Below the pieces are notes generated by a model, which saw only the letters and a list, made by a program, of their open reading frames with translations, had not been told where the DNA came from and made no database searches. DNA of 64,000 nt, taken from NCBI GenBank assembly GCA_947179485.1, contig OX359246.1:33294001-33358000 (forward strand), read 5' to 3'. The position numbers and the translations under genes are program-made. The stretch comes from Allacma fusca (lineage: Eukaryota > Arthropoda > Collembola > Symphypleona > Sminthuridae). Shown piece by piece: positions 10,861 through 44,781 of the stretch (positions are counted from its first letter, which is position 1; every line of letters begins with the position of its first letter).

Positions 10861-11575
10861 GTACCGATGACTGAACAACCATGCTTCTTAACATGTGCGT
10901 GTCATTGGGATGGGGGTGAGAAATTCGTTAATATTCCTTTTGGAACTTTCGTCAAGTTTGCAAGCTGAAATTGTCTTTTAAAAAAGTATGTATCCCTTTT
11001 GATATTGCTCAAATGCAAGAGATCCATGAGAGTTTCATGTGGGTCAAAGTTTGCCGTTAAATGTTTTTTATTTTCTCTAAGATTTTTGATTGCGTCCGAG
11101 TATACCTTTCTTGATACCACTGTGGAAGTACGAAATAAAGGAATGGCATGCGGTCTTCAATTTTCCCCTGCAAGGTGGACCGGATATCGCCGAATCGCAT
11201 ACCATGATCACTCATAAGAATGAGGACGGTGTCGTTCAGGTAGCCACCAGACTTGAACCATTGCAGGGTCTCCAGCAGGTGATGATCCCTAAATTGTCCA
11301 TAATTAAGTTTGTCATGAGTGAGGGCCGTGGTCCAAGTGAAATGGAAGTAACGTTGGAATTTGTTCATTGTAGTTGTCATTCCATTCATCAAATCCAATA
11401 GCACTTTAAAGCTATGGTAAAGGTTACGAGCACCTCCAGAAGATCTTCGTCGAATTAGCATATCCATTGTTCGTAGTAACGTATGGTGGTAATAATTCGT
11501 TGGAGGGTTAATAAAACCACGTTTTGTTAGGTAAAAATACCCTACCTGAACGCCATCCTCGCCGAAAGCTTTTGG
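10861..11575 (-). pseudogene. DUF229 (alkaline-phosphatase-like) pseudogene fragment
   Basis: This is a broken paralogue of the intact DUF229 gene just upstream, aligning with the middle of its last exon. The shared block includes TALTHD, LNYGQF, LMSDHGMRFGD and KIEDRMPFLYF, and nucleotide identity there is high, roughly nine in ten bases by eye. Compared with the intact copy there is a 2-base insertion near 11,105, after the QWYQE segment. A second frame change lies near 10,905, and a TAA at 10,890-10,888 replaces an Asp codon. The N-terminal exons are not found upstream, and similarity fades above about 11,575. The copy therefore looks like a recent, 5'-truncated duplication that has lost coding ability. 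Confidence 0.88.
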
Positions 11576-11590
11576 CAGCCTTACATACAC

Positions 11591-12416
11591 AATGCTACAA
11601 AAATATATCTTGTAAATTCCAACGACGTTATTAAATTATGGTCTGTTTGATAATCACATACTTATGTGGGTCTTCGTAAGTAACCAAGGTAAACTCTGTT
11701 GAATCTCGAGACGACATTGTAGCCGAACATAGAAACCTAACAGTTGTTGCAAGGAGGACACTTTTTTGCGCACAAACTGTGCGTAAATTAGGAAACTACA
11801 GTATAAGTATTTCCTTTTGAGATGAACTGAGCAGTAGGAGCTCTGGTGGGAGAATGTGTTCATATTCCTTTTTAATCAACATCAATTCAATAACCTTCCT
11901 GTATTAAGTGTTTTTAGCCATGTGTAGGTCTTATTATGTCGGCTAGGTCCATCTGTGAGGAATTTAACGAACCAACAATTTCCGTGAACGAGAGAAAAGA
12001 AATAAAGAAACGTTTAGAGCCGTGATGGCCGACATGTGGACCGCAGAAGATGAAGAAAAAACCGCAGAACATCCCATTGGCTATTGCAGATTGAATGAGG
12101 CGATTGGAGAATCTCCATGGAATAATTTGACTGATCCTGGATCTGTTTATTATGACTAGAGTTTCATGCATCATTTATGCAAACTACATTTACTTGCATG
12201 TAATTATTGAAGTTATCAAGTATGATATGCTGATATTGATATTACGTTTGTACAGTAGTACAATATTTCAATGAATACAACAATGTTGTTTTAAAAACAC
12301 ATTAATTTATCAAAGTTCTTAAGAAATATTAATATCTATAAGTTAGTGTTCGTACACCCAACAAATATTATACAATTAAAGTATTTGTTGTGTCAAAGAA
12401 TTTCTTTGTAAGTACG
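11591..12416. other. spacer between DUF229 copies
   Basis: Two minus-strand frames, about 11,654-11,863 and 11,914-12,174, are open, but neither aligns with the 5' exons of the intact DUF229 gene and neither has a recognisable domain. They may be decayed remains of the duplication or chance frames. Confidence 0.4.
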
Positions 12417-14921
12417 TTACCCACAATAACAATACTTTTTCAAATGTTCGTCCTGCATGCATCGACTCTGATGCCCGTAACTGCTGGTCCGGTCAATTTC
12501 CTCAGAGACCTCCCATGACCCATCAGTATGATGAGTGACCGTGGCTTCATAGGTACCCCCGCTGGGTCGAACTTTAAAATCAATATTATATCTAATTTTC
12601 TGCTTTGTCAACCGTGGGTCATTAAGGTCTCGAGGGATTTCCGACTCATCCCAATGAACATCATCCGAATTGTGGTGGACTTGAGCATTCAGCACAGAGT
12701 CAAAAACAAACTTATGACATTGTAAGTTCTTTGATATAATACCATTCAGCGTCTCCACAGCTTGACGTGCCCCTTCTATCACAATTTCATTCCCCTCCAA
12801 AATCAACGGTTTTAACTCTCGGCAAAGGCACCAATGACTGGAAAGCCCTGCTTCGTCACAGGTTCTTGTCAATGGGATCGAAAGAAATAAACTAATTCCT
12901 CTTGGAACGTTCCTTGAGGTGGCCAGCTTGAACTGTCGTTCCAATAGCGTATTCTTCTCAATATTGTTCAAATGCAAAAGATCCTTGAGAGTTTCGTGCA
13001 GGTCAAAGTGTGTCGTCAGAAGTCTTTTATTTCCTCTGAGGCGTTTAACTGCATCCGGATAGGTTTCCTGGAACCACTGGGGAAGTACAAAATAAAGGAA
13101 TGGCATCCGATCTTCAATTTTGCCCTGCAAGGTGGAACGGATATCGCCGAATCTCATTCCATGATCACTCATAAGAATGAGGACGGTATCGTTGAGGTAG
13201 CCCCCAGACTTGAACCATTGCAACGTCTCCAGCAGGAGATGATCCCCAAATTGTCCATAATTAAGTTCGTCATGAGTGAGAGCCGTAGCCCAAGTGAAAT
13301 GGAAATAACGTTTATTTTTGTTCATTGTAGTGGCCATTTTCTTCATCAATTCCAACAAAATCTCAAAGCTTAGGCGAGTCCCGTAACACATGTTTGCAAC
13401 CCCTTCCTGGGCCGTGTGACCGATTTGCTTGTCCATGGCATGTAGTGCAGGATGGTGGTAGTAGTCCGTGGGGGGGTCACGAAAACCCCGTTTCTCACAA
13501 CGAAATATCCCAACGTCATTGGCATCCTCACTGAAAGCTGTCCTGTAGCCCTCTTGAGAGAAATTCTTCCAAATGAATGGAACATCGTCAAAAAATTTGC
13601 TCACGTTCCAACCCGTTCTCTTGAGGTCCTTTAAGGAAAGACCACTTAACACTGGGACTGAAACACAGATTTTAATTGTATTTTTCTTAAGGAGGTCCTT
13701 ATATAAGGTCTAGAGAATAAATAAGGATTATGTCCACATTTTCCAGATAATTACAGCGTCCTCTCTATACAAGAGACGGCATTGTATTTTTTGAATCAAA
13801 AATATAAAAATAAAGGGATTTCGAGGCTTCACTTATAGAGAGAGAGAGCGGGCTGTAATATAAATTTTTAGACACTAACAAATAACAATTTACGGGTGTT
13901 CGGGAATGTGTTGTCAGCATTCTTGTTATATCCCCACATGCCAATGGCGGACAGATCATTGACCAGGTACGCATAGGAAGATTTAAAATTTCTCATGAAA
14001 TTCATATGGGAAACGGAATCCACCCCAAAAATTACAACATTTACCCTTTTTCTACCTGCGGGTTCTATGAATCTTGAATTTGAAAGGGGTTTCAATGGCA
14101 CGAGCCCAAATATGTCCAGGAGTGTGTAAGAGGCAATATCATTTTTTGTAGTGAGACACTTCACTAGTATAAACTCAAAATCTTGAGGAATTTTTGTTAC
14201 GTTACTGCTGATGAGATTGCAAGTAGTGGCTGTCCTATAAATAGAAGGAAAAAACATGAAGTTCAAACTCTTGTGAGAGAACCCGTAGTAAAAAAATTAT
14301 TATTGTTAATTCAATTAACTTGACAAATTATTGACATTCGGGCTGATGGGATTTTGCCAAAATAATTCATTCATGTCATAAAATTTCCAATGTTCGATCT
14401 CTTATAGTAAGAGTGCAGAACAGTACTAATGAATCTTGTATGGTTTAATTGCAAGGTATAGAACGGTCATTATTATTAAATTTGATTTACTCAATTTCCA
14501 TTTCTGAACCCCTCTTCCTTTCAAACTTGAGATAACAGCAACTGAAATAACCATCTTCTCTTGGATCCCGCAACTGAATCAAGTTCCCCTCATTGTCGGT
14601 AGTGAAATAACGTGGATGATCTGAGGAACAGCTTAAATTTTTGTCGGGCATCCCAATATATTTCTCGATCGAAGGATCGTAGGGATTAAGCTCTGGGATG
14701 TGACACTTGACGAGAGGAGATTTCAGAGATTTTTTCGAAGAAAAGTGAAAATAGTTGAGAGATATGTAGAAATTCCTTGCATAGGATAAGTAAAAAATAA
14801 GAGTGATCACTAGTATTGACCAGATTGCTACAGCAGACCTTACTGGGGAGGTTAATTTGCTGGAGGTAGTTACACGATTTAATTTGGCACGAAAATAATT
14901 TCTTTGTATAAAAGTTTTCAT
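12417..14921 (-). CDS. DUF229 family type II membrane protein
   Basis: Three exons, 14921-14491, 14234-13894 and 13657-12417, join with phases 2 and 1 to give about 670 residues, the normal length for the family. The chosen ATG at 14921 is the first usable one; upstream in-frame codons are non-ATG. A single hydrophobic segment near residue 40 (WSILVITLIFYLSYA) predicts a signal anchor with a lumenal or extracellular C-terminal body. The body shows the alkaline-phosphatase/sulfatase superfamily pattern of DUF229. VVIFGVDSVS marks the likely nucleophile strand. The exon 2/exon 3 junction rebuilds NTFPNTLPVLSG, a family hallmark, and LMSDHGMRFGD carries the metal-binding Asp-His. The substrate is unknown for this family; a secretory-pathway hydrolase or transferase role is inference. 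A truncated pseudogene copy lies downstream. Confidence 0.88.
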
Positions 14922-33886: not shown

Positions 33887-35672
33887 CACTGCTGCCCTAG
33901 TCTAGTCAGACTTGACTAGGAAAGTCTAGACTTGACTAGACTAGGAAGAAAAATGGACGTAAAAGAATAGACTAGACTTGACTACGAATGGTGTTACTAT
34001 TATGTGACTTGACTAGAATAGACTAGGGCAACTTGCGAAAACACAGGACTTGACTAGACTTGACTTGCATGACTCCATGGAAAATCTAGTCAAGTCTTAA
34101 TTACTTGAGGCTCCCTCATGTAGCTGAAAATCACAGCTAGAGAGCCAGAGTGAAATTCCAGTACAGTTTACCATGCTTAAGTAAGTACATGATTTTCGTT
34201 TCGATAGAATAAAACATGAAATTGTCCTCTGAGTCACGTGGAAATGTTTAGGGAAAACTAGTTTTTAGTTAGTTTCTTCCTTAACAATGGAATTGGTCAT
34301 AATGAAAGCTACATTACATTTCCTACATTTCATTTTTGGAAAAAAAAATCTATGAATACTCTTCAAATTGCAACTAAAATTAAAAACACAATTATTTGGG
34401 ATACGCTTTCCTTCCTGGTGGAGGCCCTCGATCATAAACTTGGTGTGATTATGGTAGTTCACACTACACAAACTTCATTTTCTTGTACCAGGAAAAATAC
34501 CTGGTATACTACATTGTACCAGGCACTTGTTGAACCTTGAATACAGTTGACGTTCTAATGGAGGAAATTGTATAACTACAACATATATAATCAGCGATTC
34601 CTGCGAGAGGCCCCCCAATCCTAAGAGATTCTACCCACAAAACAAGTTTAGTCACTGCACTAGGAATATTATTCTTTACCAATTCACGGAAGTTCCACCA
34701 ATTATATTTTAACCCCACCGAGAACATAGTTGGTAATAATTGAAGGAAAGCAGGGACTAACAATGAGAAATAACGTACGTTCCACCAAGTATATTTCACC
34801 CCACCGAGAGCACAGTTGGTATTATTTGAAGAAAAACTGGTTCTGTCAAAGAGGAATCAGATATCACTTCGCTTACATATTCATGTATTAAATTCAGCCA
34901 TAGATCAATTCCTTATACTCTGATTCACCCCCAAAATGTTAGTGTATGTTTACTAATCCCATTTAAATTCCTGGCTTCTTTAAAACACTCAATGTAGCTT
35001 ACGAGATTGCTCATTGTCAGAACAAATTTGTCTTCATTAATGCCAAGTTTGTTTCCAGTGGAATCAAAACATGTGATTCCTTGCTGTCAGCACCTGTTTC
35101 AGAAAAATTACTACCACCAATGCTGCTGATACATCCAAAAAACACTCGGTACAACTTACGTATTTTGTCATTGTAATTACCAGTATACTTTCAATTAGTA
35201 CCAACCACACACCTGGTACTTCTTCCGATATATTAGATAGGAAAGTTGAACCACTACTTAATAAATTGACAATTGTTGATTGCTCAAAAATATTATACTT
35301 ATATTGATGTTGTAAACGACACGTGTTGTTTCTCATTTATACAACATTGCATGCAAATTAACATGAGTTAATTTTTTGCTAGATGTATTCTCTAAAATCT
35401 GAAAAAACAATTCTGAAAAAAAACTCAAGATTGTGCAAATAACATTTTTCATGCATTGCTAGTCAAGACGGAGGAAATTTTGCAAAAAAATATAATGTGA
35501 CTAGGGGAATAGACTAGACTTGACTAGGGAACCAGCTGAAGAGACAAGACTAGGACTAGACTTGACTATTGTTACTTAAACATATAGCTGACTTGACTAG
35601 ACTTGACTAGTTGCGGTTCTAAGCATTAAAGAGTAGACTAGACTTGACTAGGTAGCCTGGCGGGCAGCAGTG
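33887..35672. mobile_element. hAT-type transposon, 1,786 bp, apparently non-autonomous
   Basis: The element begins CACTGCTGCCC and ends with the exact inverted copy GGGCAGCAGTG, an 11-bp terminal inverted repeat. The flanks carry a perfect 8-bp direct duplication, GCTGATAA, at 33,879-33,886 and 35,673-35,680, the hallmark of hAT insertion. Both ends are packed with GACTAGACTTGACTAG-type subterminal motifs, the usual transposase-binding array. The interior has short frames only and a direct repeat (GTTCCACCAA...CCCACCGAGA, near 34,695 and 34,780). No hAT transposase motif is recognisable. Confidence 0.92.
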
Positions 35673-35680
35673 GCTGATAA

Positions 35681-36404
35681 TATATTATCGCCGCTGTGAA
35701 TTAAAAATTCCCGCCAGTAGGTTATGGTTCAATATTCGAAGCTCCGATGTAGGTTTGTTATCATTGAGTTCTCCTCTTATTGACAGTTGAGCCATTGATC
35801 AGGATTTAAATCATTCCTTGATCAAACCAGATCCAGGTACTCATATATTAAGACCCAAAGTTGAACTCTAATTCGATCAAAACTTGTACCAGGTCATGGA
35901 ACTTCTTGTGGAGCACTGAGGTCAATATATAATATCGAGGGATTACTCCTGGCCTCTACCAAAGTTAAACTGAGACCATGAGACTATTTGTTACCCTCTG
36001 AAGTTTTTAAGAGATGATATTCCAACTACATAAAAATGCATTGAGGTCAATATATAGGAGGCCATTTGAAGCTTATATTGAAAAAGTAATTCCCTGCTAC
36101 GGTGCAAATTGTTTTTTTTTAGGTTTAAGTAATGTCCATAAAAAATTTCATTGAAATCGGACCCGTAGTTTTTGAGTAATTGTGCGGAAGGACACACAGA
36201 CGTACGGACGTAAGAACAAGGCTATTTTACCAGGGGACTGACGCCACCCTAAAAACCCCATTTGGACTACTCATCCCATCATAAGCTTTGACATCAACCC
36301 CAATTTTTCCAAAAAAACATTTTTATTTAGGTAGTCGAGCTGAGCTCATTACTATATTGACATTACAGAAAAATACAACCATAAGCATAAAAATTCCTAA
36401 AAAT
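35681..36404. repeat. spacer containing an interspersed-repeat remnant
   Basis: Around 36,120-36,250 the sequence reads TTTCATTGAAATCGGACCCG..., then ACACACAGACGTACGGACG. This style of degenerate block is common in decayed arthropod transposon tails and is not coding. Nothing else is recognisable between the hAT element and the prolyl hydroxylase stop codon. Confidence 0.45.
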
Positions 36405-39400
36405 TTATTGATATCTGGATCTGGACTGTCCATTTACAATGATCTCATATATACCCTCAGGTTTCAAATGACACTGCAGGTGGTGCTGTTCACTTTCAAA
36501 GAAATCCCGAGCAACAACTATAGTTTTGACAATTTAAAAAAAAAATGTATAAGCTTTGAGCTTTAAAATAGGCAAGGATTTTGTGGTAGTTTCATACAAA
36601 ATAAAATGTTGTCTATTTATACTGGAACACACTTACTCCATTTCTCCCCGAAAACAATAGGGCAAGAGGCATGCTCCATCCTTGGATTTATTTTCCCAGA
36701 ACTGTGAAAGTTGTAAAAATATATTCCAGATCCTTTTCTAGGCGTGACTTTAAGGCCTATTCGATGAAACACCGTTTCTCCACCCTTCTCCACATCTGAA
36801 ATCTGGAATATGGGGACAGAGCAAGGCAATTAATCTTAGACATACGAACTGTATATTGAACATTTAATATTCGGCCAACACAAACATGTTTACAAATGAG
36901 ATCTATCACGGGCGATTTATTTTAAAAACTCAGACTCCGGAGCAAGTTTATATTTTAGCGACACACATTAAGTTTGCATAACACCCTTGTATAGCCAGAC
37001 TTACGTAGAAGATAAAAGACGCCACATATTTGTCGACATTCGGGATTTCCTGAAAAGACAAGTAAATTTTGTGGTTGAAGTATTTTAGGGCAAATGCAGT
37101 AAACATTTTATAATAAATCAAATTAAATGTATGTATAGACCATCCACCCCATCATAATGTCGTCCTCGGGCAGTTCCGGGAGGGTAGGCGTAGTAATAGA
37201 AAGGAAGGCGTGAGGAAGGCTTTAATGCTTTTAATTTTGAAAGCCTATTCATTGACCCAACTGTCCTAGCAGATTCCAAATACGCAAGTTTTTTATCCTC
37301 TGACCCAATTATTGCACTTTTCAAGGGATCAAATTCCCCATTGCTCATTACAATCCGGAACGAGTTCTCTTGCCCGTAATTTCTTAAGTCCTCCATTGCT
37401 CTATCACTGAGGACATCATAAAACTGGACGATATCGGGGTAGGGATGGATGGAGAGGAATTCAGCTTTGATCGGCCCAATTTTGTAGCTACTGTGGATTT
37501 CTTTTTCGTACCAGCAAAAGAGCTTTGACTTTTGTTCATTTGTCTAAAAATTTACAAAAAACATTTGCTGAGGATTTGAACATTTGACGGGTATTTAACT
37601 GTGATATCAACATACATTTAAAGGCTTATTACTTGCTGAATTTTACCCCTACAAACGCCCCATAACATGTTATCGTAGTTTTTGCTCTCCGTTATATTTG
37701 CTTCAAGTTCCTGGTACATCATTGATTTCCCAGTGATTCTTTGATCCCGATTACGTATTTCACTTAAGGGATTGTGAAAAAAGTGATACTTTGGAAATTT
37801 CTCTTGAGGAAGTTCTTTGTCATGCTGATTACAAAAATAAGATCGTGTATTACATTTTAGAAGATATATTTGTAGGAAAATATGTCTTGTAACTGCTTGC
37901 AAGGTATACAATTTTGTTTTGAAAGGATTTTGAGTGTTTACATTTTAAATGAACTTACAAGCATTTCCGCGTTGGCTAATTCATCGTAAACCTCCTCGAT
38001 TCTTACGGAATTATCTGAGGTGTTTTCCGTAAGATATAGTGAATGTTCTAGCCATTCTATCCCGGAAGTGAAGAATTTTTTCGAAGTTCCAAGTTTACCA
38101 ATAAGAAAGCAGTCGAGGGCATTTAAGCTGATTCTTGAGTCAACGCCATCTATAAGACCCGCCGCTACCTGGGGAAAACATGCAAATACAATATTTAAGT
38201 AAAGGGAAGGTGAGCATTTTTGAAACAAGCGTTTTTGGGAATCCTGCATATTTTGTATTTGATAATTATGTAAATTTTAAAATCTCCGTATGTGACAGTT
38301 AAACAATTGTTTACATCCTTCACGTCTAAGTCATAGACGAATTGAATTTTCAAGATTATGAACATGGCATCTTCATAGTCGACCTCTGATGGCCCATCCG
38401 TAATGCTGTAAAAACGGTTGACTAACGAAACAATTTCTAAAAGGATAAGAATTAATAAAATTATTGAAGCACTATAGACATGAGAAAAAAACTGATTAGG
38501 AGTTGAATAATCACTGATGTAGCATAAGAGCAAGAGTGTGATACAAAATTTCTTCAAGACTAAAACTTACGTAATTTAATGTGATTCCCAACGTGTGGCG
38601 AATCCAGAATCCAGGGGAAATAGTAAAGATGAAAGCGCGACAGAAGTTTGTACACAGCTACTGGATTTAGTGACACTTTCTTTGCTGCTTTCACATCATT
38701 GTGCGGTAAGTCTTCCAGATTTTCTACGAGTTTTTTAGTGGATTCCTCAAAGTTCTGAAAATACCTGGAATTATTTAAAGATGTTGTTACGACAAGATGT
38801 TTGATAAGTTTTGATAATAGCTCAAGTTGAAAAATTTGCGTACATTAACACGTCTCTGTTCTTAGTTTCAAGTTCATCTCTAAACGTTCCTCTTGTGGCG
38901 TCAAGGTTCGTGTGGTAAATTTCCTTGAGACGCGGATATAATCTCCATTCCAGCTGAACCAAATCCGTCATTCCATTTAGTGAGATTACGGAATATTTAT
39001 GGTATTTTTTACCTTTTGGAAAAGTCGGCCCTTCTCGAGATTTTCTGACGCTCTTATGGGCATCTTCTGGACGCTTCTGAAAATACTTTGATAAATTGGG
39101 CCGTTAAAATTGACAGTGTAAGAATAGGTGTAAGTCTTGGTTTCTAAAAGGTAAGTGAACTGTAGAAATAAAGGTTGCAAACTTACTTTGCCATTGACTG
39201 GGAACTGATGCCTCTCATTTTTTCTCAAAGTGTAGTGTCGCCCAAGAAATGAATCTTTCGGGAGTATCAACTTTTTTGCAACTGTTTGCCAGGAAAAATG
39301 TTAAATTACCTTTTCCCATTACAAATAATTGTGTCAAATTGTGTAATAATTTACAAAATTTTTATTTTACCCCATTTTTCGCCAAAGGAAAGTGGGCATA

Positions 39401-42062
39401 TGCCATGTTTTGTAACATCGTCGACGCCGCCATCTGAGAACTGGTTAAACCAAAATAGCGCCGATCCACTAACTGGTTGTGAAGCAACTTTTGCATATGG
39501 GAAAACAATATTTCCTTCTTGTTTAATGTCTTCCAACTGATGGCGAGTATAAGGACACAGGAAAATAGTTTTTGGCAATTTTTTAAGTATCATATGTGTG
39601 CGTACGAATATTACGAATTAATATGTACACAGTTGCTTATAATGTAATAATTGTAGCTAGTGTGTTTTCTGCTTAGCGTTCTAATTGAATTTTTACACAT
39701 GTAAATGTATTTTATGGGTAGAAAGTCTTACATGGATCAAAATGGTTGCTGATGGATTCTCTCCTAGAATAGTCTCAAATGTGGGGGATACCTATTTACA
39801 AACAGCAATGGGTCGAGGATTTCAAAAAAATTTTAAACTGTACGCTTTTTAAAGCAAAATTTTAAAATATATTTGCAATTATTGGTAATAGCAATATCAT
39901 ATGTGTAGTTATGCAGAATTAATATTCAAACCTTCTCCATCTTTGGAATATAGTGACTTCCAAAGGAATGGGTTTCAATGTGTAAGAATTCCGAAGCATT
40001 TTTATTTATCAACTGTAACCGTTGAAAATAAAGTCCCATGGTTTTAAGCAATATGGTTTCGTTTGGATACAAAACTCGCTTTAGCATTGTTTCTGCAGAC
40101 CTTCGATTTCTTTTGCCTTTACGGAAATTTACGGGTGCACCAGGTTTCTTTTTAGAATCTGACATTAATCTTTGAACTTGCTTTGTATTCAGAAAGTCAT
40201 ATATTTGCACAATATCCGGGTTCCTGGCCAATAGTTCAATTTTAACTGGACCTATGGCGAGGCTTGGGTGTAATTTGAACTCATTCCAACAAAACAAGGT
40301 TGCTCGGTCTTGCTCGTTCTGTATTAATAAATAATCGTCACGATACGTGATTTACTGAACTTGAGCTTAACAAGCCATTTGGAATAATCGAGCTTAAGGG
40401 AATTAATACCTGAGCATTTTCACCGGAGCATAACTCAATGTAATTCAATATCTCAAAATACTTCCCCCGTTTTGAAATGTTTCCTTCGTTAGTTAAATTC
40501 CGCTCCAATTTCCTAACCCGCTTGTAATCTTGAGGAATATAATGTCTAATCTTCCGGCTAAAAAATCTCTGGTCCATTTCTCCCCTCCTTTTGCGATCGA
40601 AACGTACGTTGTGCTGTAGTGCATTAAATACTGTATTAACTTCATAGGGTATATAATATTATTTTGCTATTAGACAAAACCCAGTGTCATAATTATTGCA
40701 GAGCTGGGTATTACATAATTCTAATAAAATATTAAGTGTTGTAAAGAAATTTAAACCCCACAATTCAAGTAGAGCATTGTACTAACTATTTCTATAGTAT
40801 TTTGAAGTGCAAATTGAATGTTAGGAATACTGGATTTCCCATCCGAAACTGCCTTCTCTTTAGCAAGCTCCAACCACGTGATTGCGCCCGCGAACTGGTT
40901 CCTTTCAAGAGCTCGAATGCCCATTTCGTAGCAATGAATCGAGTTAAAGGAACTGGGGGCACGGAAGTGTGAGAGGACACCATTGGATATCTGAAAAATT
41001 TATTGTGAAGAGGCATCAAGGTGAAATACATTTAAATAACGCGCGTATTTTACACAAGCAAAAATATCAAAAGTTGTTCCGTTATTACAACTAATTGTAA
41101 GTTTTTTTGGCAAAATTATTTTTTTAAGGTATATGATTCAAATTTTGTCCCTCGAGGCAAAAGCCAGAGGGGTCTGTTAAACATTTTATATAAATGAGAT
41201 ACAGCGTTCTCTAATTATTTTAGACTGGGTAAATCATGGCAAGCAAAAATTAAAGCTCTCTTACAATTGCGCCCTACAAAACAGATTGTCCAAAAATATT
41301 TTGAGCATATCTCTACTATGAACTCGGGAGAAATTTACCTTTTCAGAGTCATAACTGTAAATCAACTGAAGCGTTACAATTTTCTCAATAGCAAGATCCA
41401 GGTCATCCATCTGGGGCCAACGTGCCTTCCAGAAGTACAGTATTATGTACAGTCGTAACATATCTATGCCGGGTAAAATTGGGGAATTATCAGAGGAGCA
41501 GTCATGGGTAAGACCACAGTAACGTATAACGTATTATAATTAGAAACAATGTTGACATGCGCTATTATTATAATATGTATACCAAATCCTTGGGAGGATT
41601 TATGGATCACCAAATCACGAAGCAAAATATGGATCCTCCTAATTAATCTGTAGGCACAAATTGGGCTTTGAGAACAAGGTATCCCTTCACGACTCATATT
41701 CTGAGAGTGGAATATGGAAGGAGCCGTTGTTTCTTCAAAATCCTTTATGTACCTAATTATGATTAGCAAAATGTCATTTCTCGAGCAGGGTTTCAAAAAA
41801 TCCGGACAGCTTTCAAAACTTACAATTTAATTGGATCCGTTTCCCCCAAATTGTTAAATACCATTGCTTCGGAAGAAGCCAAGGATTTAAAATATTTTGC
41901 AATTTTCAATTCAAACCTCACCAAGGATTCTAGATCCAAAACTGACTGCGTGTATAAATTCCCGATGTTTTGACTCCCAATTAGTTGAATGCAAAACACC
42001 AGAGGGACAAATACGGAAAGTCTTATCTTGAATACGTGATAAACAAATAAATGAAGGATCAT
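36405..42062 (-). CDS. tandem-fused prolyl 4-hydroxylase alpha-like protein (two units)
   Basis: Eighteen exons join in frame to about 1,106 residues. Unit 1: 42062-41824, 41752-41583, 41463-41339, 40990-40787, 40613-40410, 40318-39932, 39791-39732, 39536-39371, 39281-39187. Unit 2: 39076-38844, 38764-38571, 38436-38315, 38168-37959, 37824-37633, 37543-37148, 37049-37005, 36802-36637, 36517-36405. Exit phases in both units are 2, 1, 0, 0, 0, 0, 0, 1. Each unit has a P4H-alpha N-terminal domain, a helical peptide-substrate region ([10 protein letters not shown] in unit 1) and a 2-oxoglutarate/iron dioxygenase domain. Only unit 1 starts with a signal peptide. Unit 1 has lost the iron ligands: HxD aligns with K440-M-E442, while H507 and K517 remain. 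Unit 2 keeps H996-Y-D998, H1058 and K1068. Family members hydroxylate proline in collagen-like chains in the ER with PDI as beta subunit. The join 39187/39076 is inferred from phase, splice sites and the absence of a second signal peptide. Two separate genes remain possible. Confidence 0.82.
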
Positions 42063-42515: not shown

Positions 42516-44781
42516 TTAACGGTTTCGTCCAATAAGCGTTGCGAGCAAGTCATAAAACAAGGGATGAAGTGCAGTCACAGATAATTGCTCCACTTGTTTG
42601 CAAGTCCTTTCCAGTATTTCCTGCTCCCAGCATTGGAATAATTCAGGGATACCAATTTCTCTGTAGAGATTCTTAACCACTGCGACTTTGTCCTGGTCCT
42701 TGTCTCCATAATTTTTCTATTTAAAAAATTCATTTTTTAGTTCTATTTGTATAAACGGGGTGACTCAAGACCTTTTCCTCACCTTACCCCATGTTGCCCA
42801 TGGAAGGTTCAATAGCATGTAAAATTTATTCAATTAGCCCCTGTAATAATTACTTTACACTAAAAACCCAGTTTGCTAAAATGTATAATTTCATTTGATA
42901 TTGAATATAATTTTATTATTACCAGTAAAACTTGACGCTGATTGGCAGAACACTTCTCTAATGCATTGACAAACAACCATGTGCATTTCCCTTCTTTAAT
43001 ATCCGTCCCAATCTTCCCCATGAGCTTCGGGTCCACAAAGCAGTCCATGAAATCGTCTTGGATGGAGTAAATGAGTCCAATGTCCAAAGATAGCTCCTCC
43101 ACTTCCTCAAATGCTTTCAAATCTTTAATTCCATTCTGAAAAATTTGACCGGACTTTAAATTGAGCCTTTTAATTACACTGGGACTAAATTTTAAATTAA
43201 ATTTTGAAATATTACAAATGTATTTGACCACTAACCTTTATCATAGACGTGGCTACAGGGGAGTAGAAAGTGTAGTAGCCATTTTTGAACCTCATCATAC
43301 TCTTGTAGAACTCCATGTTGTACCTATTTGGGAGTGTTGACAGTTATGTGAGTAATCATAAGAAATAATGAATAGATAATTCTGATTGTGAGATACGGCT
43401 AGCCGAAAAGAAACTCACATTTCATAATTTTTATGAGTGGCATTCCTAACATCCCTGCATTCCCCATACATGCCAGCATGAACGATGAAGCTGTACAAAT
43501 CCACCAGGTCCGTGTAGTAGGTGGTGTTCCCAAAATATTTGGGCATTAGCATGAAGGGTGAATTAAGAAGTAAAAGACCGTCGTTCAGAGCCCCCATCCC
43601 CTGGTTATTGACTTTGTACCAGCACAACCGATCCCTCCTGGTGTCCGACTCATCCATTATATCATCCACCACGCATGCGGCTGCCTGACCCTATTTTTTT
43701 AATCACAGAAAGAAGATTCAAAATTATTTGAAAATCGCTGGGTCAATTTAAACTCTTTATATTTTATAAGCAAAATTATGACAATTAAAAAAAATATGGG
43801 ATAGTATTTCAAAATATCATTAATTGCAATAAGCTAACAAATTTTTGAATCTTTGCAAGCGTTATTTTGAAAAGCGTTTATATATTTAAAAATTTTGATA
43901 ATTATTATTACGCCTACAATACGAGAATTTTGCAGAATATTTATATAAATAAATTTCAAATGAGAAATTAAAGTGCGAGGTGAAGCATCCTGTCCTAATT
44001 ATTTCAATATTTCAAAATTAAAGATGGCTTCCGAATTTAGTTCCCAAAGCCCTGCTTTTATAAAAGAAAATGTAGAGCGGGAGTTCTTACCAGTTCAATT
44101 AGCCAAGCAAGAATATGAACCTTGTGCATGTTCTCAGGTGAGGTATCATTACTTAAATATTTGTCGGCCAGAATCACTTGGAAGGCCCTGAAATAGAACA
44201 ATTTTGATTTAAATTTTTTGAGGATCTGATAATAATCCCAGCTTGAATAAATTCGCAGCTATAAGCCTTGCCCCTCATAAAGATATTTGATGTGAAGGGT
44301 ATGAATTATTATAAAATCTTTCAGTACCTAATCCCTTTACCATGCGGAGTATTGTACTTGATAACTTCCTCCATCCAGCTATTGGTCTCAGGCATCACTT
44401 CAAACCCAGACAGGGATGTCAAATCTTGAATGATTTGGGGTAAGTGACTCCTCCATGCTTCAATTTCGGCAGGTGCTATTAATTTTTGTTTTTTATTCAA
44501 CAAATCTAAAAAAAAACAAATAAAACTTACTCAGGTTATCAGTAATAATAATAATATTACAAGTATTAATCACACTATAAGGATCAAAGATGTAAAAAAA
44601 TTATAACATATCAAAATCCCAAGAGGAAGAATTTTAATTATTTTTATTTACCTTGAAACCTCTGCGAGTCAAATATAGCTGGTGGATATCTTACTTGTGG
44701 AGCCAGCTGACTTATTTTTCGTTTCCCAGTGACTTGACAAAGTAAATTAGAAGTTAGAAGGTGTCTCAAATGGGATGTCAT
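42516..44781 (-). CDS. short-chain isoprenyl (farnesyl-type) diphosphate synthase, probably mitochondrial
   Basis: Seven exons, 44781-44652, 44505-44328, 44187-44091, 43690-43419, 43323-43236, 43135-42923 and 42716-42516, join with consistent phases to 392 residues. The N terminus (MTSHLRHLLTSNLLCQVTGK) is basic, hydroxylated and acid-free, like a mitochondrial presequence. The first aspartate-rich motif is DDIMD at 144-148, followed by the diphosphate-binding TRRDRLCWY. The second is DDFMD at 282-286, followed by GKIGTDIKEGKCTW. The C terminus (LFYDLLATLIGRNR) ends where farnesyl diphosphate synthases end. Both Mg-binding motifs are intact, so condensation of isopentenyl diphosphate with an allylic diphosphate is expected. 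The two residues at positions -5 and -4 before DDIMD, aromatic in typical animal farnesyl synthases, are Ala139-Ala140, so the product may be longer than C15. The start is the first ATG after the upstream spacer. Confidence 0.9.

Follow-up and report, generated by a model that had tools for sequence, protein, structure and literature searches.

A joined prolyl 4-hydroxylase alpha gene in the springtail Allacma fusca and the candidate pseudo-subunit in its predicted chain

Structure of the joined gene

We analyzed a 64,000-nucleotide stretch of the genome of the springtail Allacma fusca (contig OX359246.1, positions 33,294,001 to 33,358,000; hereafter the window), in which a minus-strand gene between 42062 and 36405 appears to encode a single chain with two prolyl 4-hydroxylase alpha (P4H-alpha) units, of which the first lacks the iron ligands of its active site. 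An earlier note on this DNA had described eighteen exons in a single frame, and on rebuilding the gene we obtained precisely this, a frame of 1106 residues that is closed by a stop at 36405. The exit phases run 2,1,0,0,0,0,0,1,0 through unit 1 including the seam between the units and then 2,1,0,0,0,0,0,1 through unit 2, and the introns are all GT-AG, with a weak donor (GTGGAT) after exon 15 whose junction is present also in P0001, the public A. fusca model of this gene (99% identity across 60% of the query). A spliced aligner fed with the same protein returned identical exon borders, which tests the aligner only and adds no independent evidence. Identity between the two units is 23% across 478 aligned positions, and searching the window with both of them as queries revealed no further P4H-like stretch.

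Unit 1 opens with exon 1 (41824..42062, 239 nt), which carries the start codon, the only signal-peptide-like stretch at a start in the 1106-residue frame (signal peptides being judged throughout by hydrophobicity rather than by a dedicated predictor), and the beginning of the N-domain. The N-domain continues through exon 2 (41583..41752, 170 nt; Pfam P4Ha_N at unit-1 residues 40-185) and exon 3 (41339..41463, 125 nt) and ends in exon 4 (40787..40990, 204 nt), where the expected peptide-binding region starts. Exon 5 (40410..40613, 204 nt) is followed by exon 6 (39932..40318, 387 nt) with the first half of the catalytic domain, in which the codons for K440-M441-E442 (39935..39943) replace the iron-binding His-x-Asp (HxD). 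Exon 7 (39732..39791, 60 nt) leads to exon 8 (39371..39536, 166 nt), which retains the distal His and the 2-oxoglutarate Lys, and exon 9 (39187..39281, 95 nt) includes the codon of Y535 (39232-39234) and closes the unit with FPVNGK.

Beyond the seam intron (39077..39186, 110 nt, phase 0), exon 10 (38844..39076, 233 nt) is the seam exon, combining a linker with a first exon of unit 2 that is devoid of a signal peptide. Exon 11 (38571..38764, 194 nt) lies in the N-domain, with P4Ha_N at unit-2 residues 79-191, and is followed by exons 12 (38315..38436, 122 nt), 13 (37959..38168, 210 nt), and 14 (37633..37824, 192 nt). The catalytic exon 15 (37148..37543, 396 nt) holds an intact HYD metal motif (codons 37151-37159), and after exon 16 (37005..37049, 45 nt), exon 17 (36637..36802, 166 nt) supplies the distal His H1058 (36671-36673) and Lys K1068 (36641-36643), completing the catalytic set. 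Exon 18 (36405..36517, 113 nt) ends in a TAA stop, and 77 nt past it stands an AATAAA (36322..36327), a possible poly(A) signal.

The note had credited each unit with an N-domain, a peptide-binding region, and a dioxygenase domain. The N-domain held up in both, with P4Ha_N scores of 33.1 bits in unit 1 and 38.1 bits in unit 2 (Pfam cut-off 25.3). Neither unit matched the Pfam dioxygenase domain at E<=1, and hence the assignment of the catalytic domains rests on the Protein Data Bank (PDB) entry 7zsc of human P4HA2, which unit 1 matches at E 4.4e-18 and unit 2 at E 7.4e-21. The peptide-substrate-binding domain TPR_P4H gave a weak match in unit 2 (13.0 bits against a cut-off of 27.0) and no Pfam match in unit 1, and the PDB match of unit 2 to P4HA1 ends at chain residue 195 of 239. 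The description of two complete units had to be given up, because unit 1 carries KME where unit 2 has HxD. From this replacement we infer that unit 1 should not act as an ordinary dioxygenase, even though its distal His and Lys are still there.

The joint and its relatives

The seam at 39187/39076 is as the note had it, in phase 0, with a GTAAGT donor and unit 1 ending in FPVNGK. P0001 begins at the end of exon 6 and reads across this seam, using an acceptor 9 bases upstream and in frame (exon start 39085; 101-nt intron) that adds YFQ; as its contig measures 7,389 bases, P0001 does not lie within the present assembly. We also looked for signs that unit 2 is expressed by itself. Its exon has no start upstream of MTDLVQ, consistent with the claim that unit 2 has no signal peptide of its own, and a minus-strand scan for alternative starts, covering exons of 18-90 codons that begin with ATG, include a hydrophobic stretch, and end at a phase-0 donor, returned only the start of unit 1, while the same scan on the plus strand as a control gave one match. 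The seam intron contains neither AATAAA nor ATTAAA, the AATAAA being found after the unit 2 stop.

Four other genes of the assembly share the joined frame and the seam in phase 0, one at C8:10.89 Mb and three at C12:49.86-49.89 Mb. The C8 paralogue (C8:10890639-10884802), which is 31-35% identical to the window gene, is likewise divided into 18 exons, and its phases agree; its frame stays open for 1081 residues, begins with its single signal-like start, and crosses the seam in phase 0. On C12, gene A starts at 49878560 and the fetched stretch ends inside it at 49872002, whereas genes B (49887790-49881541) and C (49867902-49862583) have 18 exons each; the model of gene A has 19 because the aligner inserted a 9-base exon. 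We found no stops or frameshifts in A, B, or C. The window gene shows all marks of the fused family, namely the joined frame, a phase-0 seam after ..PVNx(K/V), a signal-less seam exon, and a second unit in the unit-2 clade. Public models cross the seam in P0001, P0002, P0004, P0005, and P0006, the fused seam being visible in the annotation of P0005 and P0006; P0005 maps to C12:49511822-49519302 with the seam order kept, and other unit-2 matches on C12 are located downstream of unit-1 matches. The same-seam genes and the models crossing the seam thus support the covalent tandem chain that the note had proposed. Two units share one frame here, in place of one unit per chain, and the fusion is very probably real and very probably a trait of a gene family in A. 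fusca rather than a lone oddity.

Searches with the full fused chain found two-unit proteins from A. fusca only, along with a three-unit fly model (P0003), within the limited reach to other springtails that the word filter allows; three more weak matches, P0007-P0009, cover 9-10% of the query. A protein search with alignment A2 was set aside as negative evidence, as P0001 was its sole match and the known relative P0002 was missed, which makes its negative uninformative. Among the matches listed, the literature search yielded no paper that describes full P4H-alpha units in tandem on one chain.

The P4H-alpha family is expanded in A. fusca, judging from the gene models. Between C8:10.80 and 10.91 Mb (L028-L040), we counted 23 P4H-alpha unit models or fragments on one strand, several of them broken, with more matches on C12, C5, C1, and C9. 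An intronless single-unit P4H-alpha gene of 574 residues at C9:25.93 Mb (L041) is the top PF08336 match of the genome search.

As to the origin of the joint, the note had taken the matching phases to show an intragenic duplication. We reject them as proof, because single-unit paralogues carry 2,1,0,0,0,0,0,1 as well; in addition, unit 2 forms a deep clade of its own, and unit 2-type genes with their own signal-like start exist. Downstream of single unit-1 genes, an acceptor followed by a short frame starting YLPVP or similar was present in 5/11 (models 2, 3, L043, L045, and L046), and the seam exons start YLPVPKIP (C8), YLPIPKI (A and B), YLPLPEI (C), YLPIPNV (P0005), NLPVPRI (P0006), and YFQKRP (window gene). 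Four single unit-2 genes (models 9, 19, 20, and 23) open with their own signal-like stretch. Since unit-1 terminal exons resemble the starts of the seam exons and unit-2 genes have their own signal-like starts, the seam exon probably arose when a terminal exon from a unit-1 gene merged with the opening exon from a unit-2 gene and the signal peptide was lost.

In the trees, every unit 2 falls into one clade (100/100), and those of single-unit genes are nested inside it. A clade of U2_window and U2_paralog6 was rejected (approximately unbiased test, p-AU 0.00134), because single unit-2 genes nest among the fused ones. The first tree paired the unit-1 sequences U1_window and U1_paralog5 as sisters (87/88), and the larger one placed them in an unresolved fork. 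The unit-2 branchings would fit a single fusion from which unit 2 was later released, or repeated fusion. Left out of trees and counts were models 7, 11, 21, and 22 (frameshifts or stops), 8, 10, 13, and 14 (short), the partial models L045:7266, L020, and L007, L027 (a duplicate of model 1), and, from the second tree only, Condyl_b.

Two features of the window lie close to the gene. Upstream at 42545-43690, also on the minus strand, are exons resembling a polyprenyl (farnesyl) diphosphate synthase, a resemblance judged from an aspartate-rich motif. Just downstream, at 35500-35700, there are repeated AGTCAAGTCTAGTC-like units, and similar letters occur near a broken copy at C8:10.859 Mb. Farther off, at 11060-13709 on the minus strand, two related open frames have HFTWxTALTHDxLNYGQF and LMSDHGMRFGDIRSTLQGKIED in common and are probably a tandem pair of one family.

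Active-site losses and constraint

Among the 24 A. fusca units of the first alignment, unit 1 of the window was alone in having no HxD. With P0004-P0006 included (30 units), iron-ligand loss was seen in 4/10 fused units and 0/20 single ones, the latter figure covering open, nearly full-length models. The losses are KME in unit 1 of the window gene, RND together with a distal Tyr in unit 1 of P0004, the absence of HxD with a distal Tyr and a lost Lys in unit 1 of P0006, as read from the public model, and HLK in unit 2 of P0005, which was confirmed in the assembly DNA (L051); unit 1 of P0005 misses a stretch in the public model. In unit 1, gene B carries RND and gene C carries RKD, and unit 2 reads HHD in both. 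These losses are not all independent, as the distal Tyr is common to A, B, and P0006. A Fisher test on 19 single units (C9 left out) gave p 0.009 for 4/10 versus 0/19 and p 0.033 for 3/10 versus 0/19, values that have to be read with related, non-independent rows in mind. None of the seven fused chains read had lost both sites. The notion of exactly one dead half per fused chain was ruled out, given that the C8 paralogue, the assembly gene matching P0002, has both sites intact (HID and HHD); P0002 itself has HMN in unit 2.

We estimated constraint from the ratio of nonsynonymous to synonymous substitution rates (dN/dS), counted after Nei and Gojobori with our own script and bootstrapped. For the dead catalytic domain of unit 1, the pairs among A, B, and C gave 0.33, 0.40, and 0.44 (bootstrap 95% within 0.20-0.59; upper bounds 0.49-0.59). 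Unit 2 as a whole gave 0.28-0.36 in these genes and its live catalytic domain 0.31-0.32, but 0.53 (0.26-0.94) for A/B, while the linker reached 0.56-1.23 over 26-29 codons.

The presumed assembly residues were located by motif and alignment. In the human complex, the P4HA2 catalytic domain touches protein disulfide isomerase (PDI) via Cys311, Cys529, and Ile324 and has an internal Cys294-Cys504 bridge (7ZSC; PMC9676403). In P4HA2 numbering, the equivalents of Cys294, Cys311, and Cys504 are found in 10/10 fused units and those of Ile324 and Cys529 in 9/10 each. Unit 2 of the window gene has all PDI-contact equivalents, and unit 1 has all except Cys529.

A proposed pseudo-subunit and enzyme in one chain

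We propose that the window gene encodes a covalent alpha-alpha' chain with a pseudo-subunit and an enzyme in one polypeptide, and we put the probability of this reading, whose mechanism is deduced from the sequence, at roughly 0.7. One chain with two P4H-alpha units would be directed to the endoplasmic reticulum, where unit 2 would hydroxylate and unit 1 would serve assembly; that the frame and most assembly residues are kept makes pseudo-subunit the most likely role for unit 1. Unit 1 would pair with unit 2 through the N-domains, which the linker of ~45 residues could allow within the chain, and would presumably recruit a PDI. The product would correspond to the alpha2beta2 tetramer, built on a single chain and with one functional active site.

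Several points weigh against this proposal. The fusion is read here from DNA and gene models, from which the chain and its activity are predicted, and gene predictors can merge neighboring genes. An adjacent pair of genes on C8 seems unfused, model 18 being a unit 1 that runs into a stop after 10 more codons and model 19 a unit 2 with its own signal-like start, and the best match of the annotated P0002 places an additional intron in the seam region, which we read as one open exon. A terminal exon of the YLPVP type was not seen in 6/11 single unit-1 genes (models 1, 12, 15, 17, 18, and L047). The dead half is not obligatory, as the C8 paralogue keeps both sites. Genes A, B, and C, not the window gene, supplied the constraint estimates, and for the A/B pair the live catalytic domain of unit 2 is no more constrained than the dead one of unit 1. 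At the Cys529 equivalent, where the cysteine for the PDI a-domain would be expected, unit 1 of the window has Tyr (Y535) and P0001 has Cys, a difference that is possibly a polymorphism in the dead unit. Lastly, both structure predictions were of low confidence (mean predicted local distance difference test scores of 37.9 and 43.0) and were discarded as evidence.

Three alternatives were weighed. Two neighboring genes might have been joined wrongly and be transcribed separately, as models 18 and 19 appear to be, and the four unit-2 genes with signal-like starts of their own would fit such an arrangement; we give this the least credence of the three, as the seam exon of unit 2 has no such start, the scan offered no other, poly(A) signals are absent from the seam intron, five genes of the assembly share the joined frame, and the linker length in A, B, and C varies only by whole codons. 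Alternatively, the locus might yield a fused chain plus a unit-1-only protein, through retention of the seam intron or other processing: reading into that intron stays open past its end and stops at 38986, so that its retention would append a tail to unit 1, but the missing poly(A) signal again speaks against it, and we regard it as improbable. The strongest competitor, although itself unlikely, accepts the fusion and holds that unit 1 is a decaying passenger that lost its site by relaxation and plays no role. That iron-ligand losses occur only in fused genes among the models tabulated and that the window and P0001 differ at the Cys529 equivalent are in its favor, whereas dN/dS values of 0.33-0.44 in the dead domains of A, B, and C, together with nine open exons and three of four assembly cysteines retained in unit 1 of the window, argue for maintenance.

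The predicted chain resembles the alpha subunits of animal collagen P4H (human P4HA1-3; CAT-PDI complex 7ZSC) in its P4Ha_N domain, its P4HA2-matching catalytic domain, and its presumed PDI-contact cysteines (PMC9676403). Unlike the known subunits of this kind, which have one unit per chain and form alpha2beta2, the window gene has two units per chain, a unit 1 without HxD, and a weakly recognized peptide-binding domain. In Caenorhabditis elegans, PHY-1, PHY-2, and PDI-2 form a mixed tetramer with two different alpha subunits in one enzyme, on separate chains and both active; two unlike alpha units are common to both systems, those of Allacma being covalent and unequal. OGFOD1/Tpa1 combines tandem double-stranded beta-helix oxygenase folds in one polypeptide, of which the first is catalytic and the second inactive, but belongs to another family and is not known to have P4H N-domains or PDI. 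The public fly model P0003 (Condylostylus longicornis LOC129611927, 1429 residues) has three P4H-alpha units, the middle one with PTD for HxD, and so shares with the window gene several units per chain and one without the HxD histidine; it may be a merge of tandem genes rather than a true fusion. Tandem N-domains are found also in Drosophila CG34041, whose isoforms PE and PF have two P4H N-domains per chain and no catalytic domain (PMC12340787).

For the family as a whole, we see an even chance that springtails possess single-chain heterodimeric P4H enzymes, in which the joint would let either half lose its site and yet stay as a selected, PDI-binding pseudo-subunit, with the site missing from unit 1 of some genes and from unit 2 of another. 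Why animal P4H is an alpha2beta2 enzyme, and whether it needs both active sites, is hard to test with identical subunits, and natural chains with a dead and an intact unit, occurring in several paralogues and with losses on either side, would be ready-made single-site enzymes. The family would also illustrate a route from a tandem gene family to a two-unit protein, in which the end of one gene fuses with the opening exon of its neighbor and the signal peptide is lost.

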